A stretch of 64,000 nucleotides of DNA from an uncultured Fodinibius sp. (GTDB lineage Bacteria > Bacteroidota > Rhodothermia > Balneolales > Balneolaceae): assembly GCA_913056455.1 (NCBI GenBank), contig CAJXMJ010000001.1, forward strand, positions 992,001-1,056,000. Direction: 5' to 3'. Under the pieces are notes generated by a model. That model saw only the letters and a program-made list of their open reading frames with translations, was not told the DNA's origin and searched no databases. Below are positions 6,624-43,854 of the stretch, piece after piece. The position numbers were made by a program, and so were the translations under genes. Each line of letters starts with the position of its first letter. The stretch's first letter is position 1.

Positions 6624-7121
6624 ATGAACTCTGACATTTCCGGTACCCAAAAACATCTCCGATTTATGCAGCAGGCCTTTTTTCTGGCTGAACAGGCTTA
6701 TGAAGAAAAGGAAGTACCGGTTGGAGCTGTAGTAGTTAAAAATGACCATATTATTGGAAAGGGATACAATCAGACGGAACGATTAAACGATCCCACCGCC
6801 CATGCAGAGATGCTCGCAATCTCAGCGGCTTGCTCTACGCTTGGACAAAAATATCTTCAGGAATGTACGCTTTACGTGACTCTTGAACCCTGTCCTATGT
6901 GTGCAGGAGCTCTTGTCTGGTCCAAAATTGATCAAGTGGTAATTGGTGCCCTTGATGCTAAAGCAGGAAGCTGTGGGAGTGTTTACAACCTCGCATCAAG
7001 TGATAAGTTAAACCACCAAGTTGATGTAATGCATGGATTTATGGAGGACGACTGTGAGTGGATTCTAAAGCAGTTTTTCCAGGAACGTCGGTCGAAAGGA
7101 AATGGTCAACCTGACTTATGA
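6624..7121 (+). CDS. tadA: tRNA-specific adenosine deaminase
   Basis: A 165-residue cytidine/deoxycytidylate deaminase-fold enzyme that changes A34 to inosine in tRNA-Arg(ACG). The zinc site is visible: H60 and catalytic E62 in the TAHAEM segment, and C90/C93 in EPCPMC. PVGAVVV and the C-terminal GSVYNL block are typical of TadA rather than guanine deaminase. It is divergent from apt and its last 6 bp overlap the 3' end of the converging integrase-like gene. Confidence 0.94.
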   Translation: MNSDISGTQKHLRFMQQAFFLAEQAYEEKEVPVGAVVVKNDHIIGKGYNQTERLNDPTAHAEMLAISAACSTLGQKYLQECTLYVTLEPCPMCAGALVWSKIDQVVIGALDAKAGSCGSVYNLASSDKLNHQVDVMHGFMEDDCEWILKQFFQERRSKGNGQPDL

Positions 7122-7469
7122 CGCTGAAACCTGTTGTTTCCTATTGTGACCTCCCCACCGACAAATATAAAGAGGCTCTCCTTGTATAACACCCTTTAAC
7201 GACGGCAGTGGTTCTCTAATGATATAGCGATACAAAAATTCTATTGCTTGCCGGGCCTGGCTTTGAATAGAATCCGGAACCTCTCGAACTGTAACAAGAT
7301 AGTTTAAAAACCCTACCACTTCCTCTTCTCCCATATTCTTCGGATGCTCTAATTTATGATAGTAAATAAACCGGGTAATCCATCCGATATACGTTTGCTC
7401 GATGCGATAGCTCATTCCCTGTCTCCTTATCTCTGTACGAATCTTGCTAAGCAGTACCGATCTACCCAT
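7116..7469 (-). CDS. stand-alone integrase N-terminal SAM-like (core-binding) domain protein
   Basis: 117 residues matching only the arm/core-binding domain of integron-type tyrosine recombinases: the sequence pattern YRIEQTYIGWITRFIYYH, then HPKNMGEEEVVGFLNYL, then QARQAIEFLYR. The protein stops shortly after the interdomain linker (LPSLKGV), so the catalytic domain with the R-H-R-Y residues is absent. A strong Shine-Dalgarno (AAGGAGGG, about 7 nt before the ATG) argues that it is expressed and not a decayed fragment. Relatives annotated only by this domain occur in other genomes. A DNA-binding or recombinase-modulating role is an inference. Its end overlaps tadA by 6 bp. Confidence 0.75.
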   Translation of the reverse strand: MGRSVLLSKIRTEIRRQGMSYRIEQTYIGWITRFIYYHKLEHPKNMGEEEVVGFLNYLVTVREVPDSIQSQARQAIEFLYRYIIREPLPSLKGVIQGEPLYICRWGGHNRKQQVSAS

Positions 7470-7656
7470 ACTCTTCCCTCCTTTGTGTTGGCTTTATAAG
7501 TAAGACCGCAGAGAAGTCTGATCCTTACAATTTTTTTGGTCACGTATAGAACCAAAGCTGACTATATAGGCTTTTCGGAACACAATTTATTTACCTATAA
7601 TTGGACTGATCAATATAAATGACCAACAACTCTCATAGTTAAGTAATTCTTTTGTT

Positions 7657-8565
7657 ATGGCCGCTTCTTCAAAAAAAGTTATTTATGCTGCATTAATTGG
7701 GAATGGGCTTATTGCCATTACCAAATTTATAGCTTCAGTAATGACAGGCAGTTCAGCCATGATGTCCGAAGGGATACACTCTACGGTTGATACGGGGAAC
7801 CAGCTATTACTTTTACTAGGTTTAAAAAAAGCCAAAAAACCGGCTGATAAAGAGTTTCCATTTGGCCACGGCAAGGAAATATACTTTTGGAGCTTTATTG
7901 TGGCTATCATGATATTTGCCGTAGGAGCCGGCATTTCTATCTATGAAGGCATTCACAGCCTAATGGATCCCCACCCTGTTGAGAATCCCATGATCAATTA
8001 CATCGTATTGGGACTGGCGATGATATTTGAGGGTTTTGCCTTGTTTTTTGCCTGGAAAGAATTTGATAAGGCTCGTGGAAAACGGGGTTATTACGAAGCG
8101 GTTCGTAAAGAAAAAAATCCGACATTATTTGTCGTTTTATTTGAAGATTCCGCCGCAATGCTGGGATTAATTGTCGCATTTGTCGGTATAGCATTGGGAC
8201 AATACACCGGACTCCACATTTTTGATGGGATAGCTTCTATTGTAATTGGAATAATATTGGGAATTACAGCTGCATGGCTCGCTTATGAGACAAAAGGGTT
8301 ACTAATAGGTGAAAGCGCTGATCCCAAAATAGTAACCGGAATCACAACCTTAGCAAACAACTATAATTTCATATCTGACGTTAATGAAGTATTAACCATG
8401 CATATGGGACCGAATTATATACTTCTAAATCTAAGTGTGGATTTTAAAGACGAACTGGATGTGAAGAGTTTGGAGGAAAATATCACGACGTTGACCTCTC
8501 AAATTAAAAAAGAGTATCCTCTTGTAAAACGTGTATTTGTAGAAGCAGAAAACAGCCCCCTTTAA
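7657..8565 (+). CDS. cation diffusion facilitator family transporter
   Basis: A 302-residue CDF (ZnT/FieF-like) metal/proton antiporter. About six transmembrane helices fill residues 8-215. The metal-site pair in helix 2 is seen as H41 and D45 in SEGIHSTVDTGNQ, and the helix 5 acidic residue in LFEDSAAMLG. The FPFGHGKE loop between helices 2 and 3 is characteristic. A short cytoplasmic ferredoxin-like domain forms the last 80 residues. The H-x3-D pair is typical of zinc-selective members; iron or manganese remains possible. It stands alone on the plus strand with the PagL-like gene 50 bp downstream. Confidence 0.92.
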   Translation: MAASSKKVIYAALIGNGLIAITKFIASVMTGSSAMMSEGIHSTVDTGNQLLLLLGLKKAKKPADKEFPFGHGKEIYFWSFIVAIMIFAVGAGISIYEGIHSLMDPHPVENPMINYIVLGLAMIFEGFALFFAWKEFDKARGKRGYYEAVRKEKNPTLFVVLFEDSAAMLGLIVAFVGIALGQYTGLHIFDGIASIVIGIILGITAAWLAYETKGLLIGESADPKIVTGITTLANNYNFISDVNEVLTMHMGPNYILLNLSVDFKDELDVKSLEENITTLTSQIKKEYPLVKRVFVEAENSPL

Positions 8566-30836: not shown

Positions 30837-30932
30837 AAAAAATGCCGGGTCCTTAGTCAGGAACCCGGCACTGTTCTTTACCTGCTTCTCACAGGACAAC
30901 CCCTTGACCTGTTTATACCAGAAGAAGCAGGT
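30837..30932 (-). ncRNA. candidate small RNA or leader: two stem-loops ending in a T6 terminator
   Basis: On the minus strand, a first domain is closed by a 10-bp perfect stem (30923-30932 with 30880-30889) and contains an inner hairpin ACAGG/CCTGT plus CAA/TTG around a GGGG loop. Ten bases later a second hairpin (TGCCGGG...CCCGGCA, 30870-30843) carries a one-base bulge and is followed by six T (30842-30837). No gene ends just upstream of it, so it is not simply a gene terminator. It could be a free small RNA or a regulated leader of the PPTase gene. No known Rfam family recognised. Confidence 0.5.
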
Positions 30933-31140
30933 ACTTTTAAATAATGATCATTTTATTATCCTTGTTTTAAAGTAAGACCTACAATCGGACCATTCCTTAC
31001 AGTTTATTATAATTTTAATTTTTCATTCACTGTTTTAAGTAATATGATGAGTACAAATAGCGTCCAATTGATTAATTCTTAAGTTTCTGAAACCTACCAG
31101 ATGAAATTAATTTATCCTTCGATCACCTATTCTTATGGGT

Positions 31141-42333: not shown

Positions 42334-42972
42334 TTAGAAGCGATGCCGCTTATCTTTCAGCGCCTTATATAGCAACTCCCGGGCTCTAAATATATGAGCT
42401 TTTACTGTTCCCAAAGGCTTATCAAGGATATTCGATATCTCTTTGTAGCTTTTCTCCTCCATATGGCGTAGCTGAATAACCTTCCGATATTTCTTAGGAA
42501 GATCATCAATGGCATTTTGCACAATTTTTTTGCGCTGCTTTTTAATGATATCCCGATCGGTGCTGGCCGACTCGTCGGGAAGCTGCATCTCCATCTCCCC
42601 GTCCTTGGTTTTCATCGGTTTATCGATGGAGAGCGTATTTAGTTTCTTTTTACGCAGATAATCGATCGTATTATTGGTTGCGATACGATATAACCACGTC
42701 GAAAAAGCATAATTCGTACTGTAGGTATTTAAGTTATCAAATGCCTTTACAAACGCCTCTTGTACAAGGTCTTCGACCTGTTCACGATCTTTCACCATCT
42801 TCAGGATATGGAAATAGAGGGCACGCTCATACTTATCAACAAGCTTCTTGTAGGCTTTTTCATCCCCTCCTTTAGCTTTTTTGACGAGAACATCATCCTC
42901 AAGACTGCTTTCAGAAGCATTTTCTCGAGGAGAATCAGATGTATGTGAGTTCGAAGCGTTTGAATCGGACAT
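42334..42972 (-). CDS. RNA polymerase sigma factor, ECF (sigma-70 family)
   Basis: 212 residues with region 2 (DLVQEAFVKAFDNLNTYS, then FSTWLYRIATNNTIDYLRK) and region 4 (DLPKKYRKVIQLRHMEEKSYKEISNILDKPLGTVKAHIFRAREL). The N-terminal 35 residues are serine- and aspartate-rich and unrelated. It resembles RpoE/SigW-like ECF factors. No anti-sigma gene is adjacent. The long frame would start with GTG at 42978; the ATG at 42972 is preferred. The 3' ends of this gene and queG nearly touch. Confidence 0.9.
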   Translation of the reverse strand: MSDSNASNSHTSDSPRENASESSLEDDVLVKKAKGGDEKAYKKLVDKYERALYFHILKMVKDREQVEDLVQEAFVKAFDNLNTYSTNYAFSTWLYRIATNNTIDYLRKKKLNTLSIDKPMKTKDGEMEMQLPDESASTDRDIIKKQRKKIVQNAIDDLPKKYRKVIQLRHMEEKSYKEISNILDKPLGTVKAHIFRARELLYKALKDKRHRF

Positions 42973-43377
42973 TCCCACTTAAGACAGGAAAATATTTACT
43001 TTGATTATTTTCGGTTCAAACTTAGTAAAAGTGTCACTTTATTCCCACTTAATTATAAAGGCTTTAAAACATCTTAAGAAAAGTTGTAAGGTTTCTCTCA
43101 CTAAACGGTCATATATAACTAAGATCACATGCATGATATGTAAACCTAAAAAGAATAACAGCTTTTAATATCAGTACGGATTTTGTGATGTCATAGAACT
43201 TAATTACCTATTCTGGACTTCATTGGTCGTCAAAGAGATTTTAGAGCATGTAACCCATGAATTTGGTAATATAAGTTTGATTCAATTATTTTGATACAAA
43301 TTCCAGAGGGATTACGTATACAATAAGCAACCCAGAAAGGGGATACTAATCGTAAATAAAAACAACTAAATAATACT
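42973..43377. other. 405-bp divergent intergenic region
   Basis: Between the sigma factor and the barrel gene. A/T-rich. TAAGTTTG at about 43272-43279 matches the -7 element of a Bacteroidota promoter, without a well-placed -33 box. Nothing else stands out. Confidence 0.4.
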
Positions 43378-43854
43378 ATGAAGAGAACAATTAAATTAGC
43401 ATTATTACTTTTCGGATTAATCTTCGCTTACAACACCAGTGCTCAAGCTCAAGATATTAAAGCGGGGGGCGGTTTGGCATATGGAAGTGAAGTAGAAGCC
43501 ATAGGCATTCAAGTCAGTGGAGTTTATGATATAACCGAAGAAGTTAGTGGTGCCGCAGATTTTATCATATTCTTTCCTGACAACTATGATTGGTGGGAAT
43601 TGAACTTAAATGCACACTATGGCTTCTATGCTGAAGATAATGTCCGGGTATATGGTTTGGCCGGTTTAAATTATGCGACTGTGGAAGTAGACTTAGGACA
43701 ATTTGGATCCAGTTCTGATTCAGAACTCGGTCTAAACCTTGGCGGTGGTGCAGAGTTCGGTCTGGATTTCGCTAATTTATATACAGAACTAAAATATGTT
43801 TTAGGTGACGCAGATCAACTTGCTATTTCTGCTGGTCTGAGATTCCCTTTCTAA
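43378..43854 (+). CDS. small outer-membrane beta-barrel protein
   Basis: 158 residues with a signal peptide to about residue 24 (SAQAQ). The mature part has alternating strands: IKAGGGLAYGSEVEAIGIQVSGVYDI, DWWELNLNAHYGFY, VRVYGLAGLNYATV, and ends with LAISAGLRFPF, whose final phenylalanine is typical of barrel proteins. It belongs to the OmpX/OmpW-like 'outer membrane beta-barrel' group. Its function is unknown. Ended by a strong terminator. The neighbouring sigma factor might control it; that is a guess from position. Confidence 0.82.
   Translation: MKRTIKLALLLFGLIFAYNTSAQAQDIKAGGGLAYGSEVEAIGIQVSGVYDITEEVSGAADFIIFFPDNYDWWELNLNAHYGFYAEDNVRVYGLAGLNYATVEVDLGQFGSSSDSELGLNLGGGAEFGLDFANLYTELKYVLGDADQLAISAGLRFPF

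Follow-up and report, generated by a model that had tools for sequence, protein, structure and literature searches.

A stand-alone integron integrase core-binding domain gene of Balneolaceae shares an upstream promoter-like box with intI and with DNA-uptake and recombination genes

Comparative analysis of the window, i.e. the whole 64,000-nucleotide stretch of DNA under study, assigns a stand-alone gene for the core-binding domain of an integron integrase, together with the full-length integrase gene intI, to a DNA-uptake and recombination gene set that is defined at the sequence level by one shared box. The main clue, which the earlier note on this DNA had missed, is that this box is common to the gene, to intI and to competence and recombination genes. 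The stand-alone gene itself is real, conserved and under purifying selection, and is not a chance open reading frame. We tentatively read its product as a non-catalytic core-binding domain that would have been exapted from an integron integrase, would be co-expressed with the integrase and the DNA-uptake genes and would bind the DNA of IntI, a reading which we consider quite possible.

The gene lies at window positions 7116..7469 on the minus strand, starts with ATG and encodes 117 aa, the stop codon being included in the coordinates. The PF13495 core-binding (SAM-like) domain was located by profile search at residues 6-88 (7206..7454, minus strand; E 3.4e-20, profile positions 1-83 of 85), and the integron integrase model TIGR02249 covers only model positions 1-91 of 315, with 71.1 bits against a cut-off of 265. 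The previous description of an intact, integron-type core-binding domain after which the protein ends is thereby borne out. The PDB structure of IntI4 (2a3v) matches residues 5-89, and the domain is 46% identical to the N-domain of the IntI encoded in the same genome. Four helices are predicted by AlphaFold2 at residues 5-17, 21-37, 48-60 and 66-84 (pLDDT 70, alignment of nine rows), and the best PDB fold matches of this model are the three IntI4 chains of 2a3v, those beyond 2a3v being weak. The C-terminal tail, residues 93-117 (7119..7193, minus strand), has a pLDDT below 50 and is probably disordered. The stand-alone domains of the window genus carry a mean net charge of 2.3 versus 6.5 for IntI, a difference that does not favour tight DNA binding.

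The catalytic half is absent beside the gene, as had been reported: none of the 11 PF00589 catalytic-domain matches of the genome lies at this locus, and counting of full-length integrases, which the earlier note had proposed, gave a single TIGR02249 intI, at C1:598106, about 400 kb away. As the protein lacks a catalytic domain, site-specific recombination at attI/attC is not expected of it. The ribosome-binding site described previously, AAGGAGGG (7476..7483, minus strand; read from the sequence), is indeed present 6 nt ahead of the ATG, but the orthologs do not retain it as such.

Further upstream, at 7499..7529 (minus strand), stands the promoter-like box TGTAAGG-N15-GGTCTTACT. The upstream regions of the stand-alone and intI genes share this one element, made up of TGTAAGG, 15 bases and GGTCTTACT or a variant of it, and the pattern TGTAAGG-N15-GNTCWTAC is present ahead of the stand-alone gene in the right orientation. 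The box was scored on 14 positions within 130 bp upstream, stand-alone genes needing at least 60 bp of upstream sequence (G055, with 53 bp, was left out of the count). It was found in 28/28 stand-alone genes (22 at 14/14, four at 13, one at 12 and one at 11) and in all 31 intI genes (29 at 13 or 14, one at 12 and one at 11), 11-39 nt ahead of the start codon in both kinds of gene, while the best score among 1180 shuffled upstream regions was 11/14, reached 15 times. Since the consensus was drawn from the same genes, counting over whole genomes provides a better control. With up to 2 mismatches allowed, the genome of the window contains 16 box sites versus 2 for the reversed pattern, and at up to 1 mismatch the 12 genomes of the genus contain 180 boxes versus 4. 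The variant of the box follows lineage, GTTCATAC being the form in genus g11, alike for the competence/recombination and the stand-alone genes. The variant pattern occurs at 61 sites versus 1 reversed in G065, G041, G043 and G003; G041 contributes two of these, its only exact variant boxes genome-wide, and the box of its own stand-alone gene scores only 11/14. The box is also retained by three short intI-like frames outside these counts, so that its presence alone is no proof of use.

With reference to the genes downstream of the box, the targets in the genome of the window include intI, the stand-alone gene, comM (PF01078), comEC (PF03772), radC (PF04002), recA (PF00154), a gene for a ComEA-like helix-hairpin-helix protein (PF12836) and a RecN-like gene (AAA_23/SMC_N; recN by eye). 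The box also precedes a 23S-IVP gene (PF05635), an anti-sigma/TPR-like gene followed by ruvB, and genes with no obvious link, namely those of a Big_5 secreted protein and a lipoprotein; 3 of 15 boxes have no labelled gene. In the other genomes read, the box precedes comEA, comEC, comM, recA, recN and radC in G014 (22/22 boxes read), comM, recA, recN and radC in G009 (16/17), comEA, a comF-like gene, comM and recN in G013 (12/14), comEC, comM and radC in G011 (5/6), and comEC, comM, recA, intI and the stand-alone gene in G043 (27/27). In G065, which is without intI, 24 of 25 boxes were read and lead to comEC, comM, recA and radC, the box of its stand-alone gene having been read separately. Genes for SSB (PF00436), a ComF-like phosphoribosyltransferase, IS200- and RAYT-type Y1 transposases (PF01797) and GIY-YIG, PD-(D/E)XK and HU-like proteins are found among the targets as well. 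Of the 128 boxes read altogether, 89 are followed by a reference-set gene and 39 are not, and a single such gene, lexA in G000 (the genome of the window), stands on the opposite side of a box; the count of 89 versus 1 is biased, as the reference set was itself drawn from downstream genes. None of the 128 boxes has a competence or recombination reference gene on that opposite side.

The box halves appear similar to the -35 and -10 elements that ECF sigma factors recognize. Fixed spacing, orientation towards the gene and the short distance to many starts fit a core promoter. For the majority of comM, comEA, radC, intI and small mobile genes this distance is about 18-45 nt, and for most anti-sigma genes of the window genus 57-72 nt; it is not uniform, reaching about 130-180 nt for recA and 210-260 nt for recN. 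The box of the anti-sigma/TPR gene is immediately preceded by an ECF sigma gene (TIGR02937) in 11/11 loci and 9/9 genomes checked, e.g. in the order sigma gene, box, anti-sigma/TPR-like gene and ruvB at L138:955-3030, and the order in G065 is box, radC, sigma, box and anti-sigma. Since it adjoins the box in every one of these loci, this ECF sigma gene is a candidate for the factor that would recognize the box, and we infer that the box is an ECF-sigma-type promoter.

The presence of recA, recN, radC, ruvB-linked and ssb genes among the targets, and the LexA control of intI described for many Proteobacteria (PMC3108266), would suit a DNA-damage (SOS/LexA) operator in place of an ECF promoter, in which case the stand-alone gene would be an SOS gene. 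We consider this decidedly unlikely, as com genes are among the targets and the published LexA motif of Balneolaeota is a direct repeat, TTACACATATTTTWTACATA, unlike the box (PMC7739468). Moreover, across loci L133-L286 lexA adjoins a box in G000 alone, and there on the wrong side. A scan with the LexA motif gave a best site of 14/20 upstream of the stand-alone gene, a score reached by 22/200 shuffles; as even lexA itself was not singled out, the scan does not speak against LexA control in this genus.

The stand-alone gene is convergent with tadA (6624..7121, plus strand), overlapping its end by 6 bp, and divergent from a czcD-type cation transporter gene (7657..8565, plus strand), both neighbours being named by eye and serving as syntenic markers. 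Among 92 Balneolaceae genomes, orthologs in the same tadA-gene-czcD setting occur in G019, G014 and G009, at 79, 68 and 63% identity. With G000 they form a clade of 100/100 support, the window clade, in which the gene has been inherited vertically at one fixed chromosomal place. The gene order in G013 is tadA, stand-alone gene and full-length intI; in G018 intI lies near tadA and the stand-alone gene was not found there. Genus-wide, the gene is carried by 9 of 12 genomes, all nine of which also have intI, and among the three others G017 and G018 have intI, and in G011 intI is reduced to a degenerate remnant. In G013, G015 and G010 the stand-alone gene follows intI on its 3' side, on the same strand and no more than about 0.5 kb away; the two are separated in G010 by a small ORF that looks GIY-YIG-like by eye.

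Comparison of dN/dS, as suggested in the earlier note, gave pairwise omega values of 0.150, 0.140, 0.093, 0.117 and 0.079 in the window clade, the sixth pair being saturated, and omega = 1 was rejected in all six pairs (2dlnL 43.7-75.8). Among stand-alone genes, omega was measured within the window clade, between G010 and G015, and in five pairs of the second clade described below. The two marker genes are under tighter constraint (TadA 0.004-0.050, CzcD 0.029-0.042), as is IntI (0.040-0.042, three pairs), and two other neighbours evolve about like the stand-alone gene (0.024-0.116 and 0.042-0.119). Intact orthologs between tadA and czcD in three genomes, the tadA-adjacent gene of G013 and omega well below 1 together speak against a chance ORF. 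Purifying selection and conserved synteny also uphold the earlier suggestion that the gene is in use. A recent pseudogene is ruled out for the window clade by the orthologs and omega; where a full-length integrase broken by a stop or deletion had been envisaged in relatives, G013 carries intI beside a separate, intact stand-alone gene.

Four genomes share a conserved block (window positions 7577-7605, CCAATTATAGGTAAATAAAT) that lies about 52 bp ahead of czcD; a longer form of it, searched with up to 3 mismatches, has a single site in the genome. The block was considered as a regulatory site of the stand-alone gene and rejected, as its spacing is preserved relative to czcD (in both G000 and G009, about 52 bp) and not relative to the gene; judged by this spacing, it is probably a czcD regulatory site.

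A second clade of stand-alone genes is present in 20 of the 92 Balneolaceae genomes, one copy each, in genera g11, g13 and g17 (the g11-type clade). Its proteins are about 104-123 aa long; those of 16 of the 20 genomes matched the window protein over most of the domain at 24-31% identity, and 16 of 17 aligned members matched both PF13495 and the IntI model. Their C-terminal end reads FRIT followed by A or G in 10/17, a close variant in 5/17 and neither in 2/17. Placement of the gene is conserved within subgroups: a hotdog-type thioesterase gene (assigned by eye) converges on it in at least eight loci, and the gene cluster spans nine. Four of five pairs have omega values of 0.039-0.067, and the remaining pair is saturated. 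The model of this clade (pLDDT 81) aligns to 2a3v with rmsd 1.9 over 85 residues and a Z of 12.4, a level at which, according to the fold-search tool, matches among helical bundles may be commonplace. A profile of the clade searched over 395 genomes of the phylum gave at least 131 bits for the clade and at most 62 bits for everything else, and the weakest member within the family scored 112 bits.

A tree of 60 N-domains over 92 columns gives 100/100 support to each of three groups, namely the four-member window clade, G010 with G015, and the g11 clade; the stand-alone domains of G013, G012 and G016 are placed among IntI N-domains. This placement makes several origins of the stand-alone genes from intI possible, though a tree constrained to hold all nine genus members together was not rejected (p-AU 0.151). 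The same placement of three of the nine genus members, and the real truncation with its catalytic end still downstream in G091, would also be compatible with a decaying fragment of a duplicated intI. We regard decay as highly improbable, given the intact frames, promoter-like box and omega well below 1 of the window clade and the new tail shared by most of the g11 clade.

The stand-alone counts exclude three short intI-like frames: L036:5915-6310 (G091), the truncation just mentioned, with a box of 14/14, and L042:5846-6151 (G080) and L065:592-888 (G074), with boxes of 14/14 and 12/14 and no catalytic remainder found in 12 kb and 6 kb respectively. Additional broken fragments occur in G060, G061, G069 and G065. 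A crude attC scan gave attC-like pairs near intI in L048, L050, L051 and L040, and none passing the filter in 16 kb around intI in the genome of the window. In a protein search of plasmids, all 15 matches listed are intI2-type or unannotated.

The gene being preceded by the same box as intI and the DNA-uptake and recombination genes, its product probably helps to handle incoming DNA, and the shared box likewise suggests that it is probably made together with IntI and this machinery. During transformation DNA enters as single strands, and the attC sites that IntI recombines are single strands in folded form. By the proposed mechanism, the protein would be made from the ECF-sigma-type promoter when the cell takes up or recombines DNA, and its four-helix domain would bind the DNA that IntI binds, either attI or attC-type hairpins of the incoming single strands. 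Binding without cutting, the simplest role for a core-binding domain that lacks catalysis, might then moderate cassette recombination, or shield the folded single strands during uptake.

An effect through protein contacts is also conceivable, in which the domain joins IntI complexes on attI/attC via core-domain contacts and lowers cassette recombination as a dominant-negative partner of IntI only. The presence of intI in 9/9 genus genomes that carry the gene, its closeness to intI in three of them and the common box would agree with such a partner. We nevertheless think it unlikely, since the g11-type clade persists in 8/20 genomes in which intI was undetected; several of these eight are incomplete, and G065 is 99% complete in about 10 contigs. 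The second-clade gene does not track intI, given that these 8 of 20 carriers are without it (12/20 having it) and that, outside the window genus, 27 of 60 genomes without the second-clade gene possess intI. A purely anti-IntI role cannot hold for the second clade, and its survival without intI indicates that the role is not only anti-IntI.

Likewise improbable, to about the same degree, is a transcription factor with the integrase DNA-binding fold, e.g. an autoregulator at the box or at attI that tunes intI and the other box genes. A stand-alone DNA-binding fold, the same box ahead of its own gene and of intI, and the inverted arms GTAAG/CTTAC of the box would be in keeping with a regulator, whereas the box and several of its targets occur in genomes in which the stand-alone gene was not found (e.g. 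G003 and G011), and fixed spacing and the short distance to many starts suit a core promoter better than an operator.

Our preferred reading, a non-catalytic binder of IntI's DNA, can be extended to a Balneolaceae programme on one ECF-type box, an extension which is more speculative and somewhat doubtful. Such a programme would combine uptake (ComEA, ComEC, ComF and ComM), single-strand handling (SSB, RecA, RecN and RadC) and enzymes of folded single strands (IntI and the IS200/RAYT HUH transposases), with the orphan domain as a non-cutting binder that outlasts intI.

Among titles and opening portions of abstracts listed from the open-access literature on stand-alone integrase domains, integrases and competence, the box and Balneolota integrons, no description of such a gene was found. 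The closest known protein is IntI itself (TIGR02249; 2a3v), with the same N-terminal core-binding domain and, in Balneolaceae, the same upstream box; the stand-alone protein differs in being without the catalytic domain, in a separate gene and with its own tail. TnsF of Tn6022 is described as a non-catalytic tyrosine-recombinase relative likewise co-opted for DNA recognition, but it works for a transposon and, at about 500 aa, combines zinc fingers with two core-binding-like domains and part of a catalytic region (PMC10293859). The Crypton-derived DUF3504 genes of animals are similarly reported as conserved host genes from a tyrosine recombinase with most catalytic residues lost, but are eukaryotic, lie inside larger genes and in many cases have extra DNA-binding domains (PMC3212892). 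In Vibrio cholerae, incoming cassettes are reported to be captured during transformation after intIA induction, so that integrase expression is likewise tied to transformation; the link described there runs via the SOS response (PMC8191803), in contrast to a promoter-like box common to com genes and an orphan domain here. The published Balneolaeota LexA regulon belongs to the same phylum and includes recA, but has a direct-repeat motif, and the main text of that report does not contain the word integrase (PMC7739468).

If the proposed reading is true, control of the integron integrase would be tied to natural transformation by a shared promoter and not by SOS, and the DNA-gripping half of a recombinase would be able to turn into a separate conserved bacterial gene. 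The box would also offer a handle on a competence-like regulon of a phylum in which little experimental work exists.

Small scattered families are repeatedly found with the box, namely 23S-IVP, GxxExxY PD-(D/E)XK, GIY-YIG, IS200/RAYT transposases and DUF559 (L185, L189, L192, L194, L249, L251, L253, L271 and others). In the window, a weaker copy with 3 mismatches (43086-43115, plus strand; near 42334..42978) precedes 43378..43854, the gene of a predicted secreted/outer-membrane protein, and diverges from a gene judged by eye to be ECF-sigma-like. A perfect copy at 30971-31001 (minus strand) has no ORF directly downstream of it. The transcript would span about 30845-30968, where a strong hairpin is followed by a second one that carries a T run and resembles a terminator (z-score of folding -4.6 excluding the T run), and no RNA family match was obtained within the window at the gathering threshold. 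This box is a candidate for driving a small RNA under the same promoter, and similar short terminator-bearing stretches were seen by eye downstream of boxes in L204, L219 and L243.
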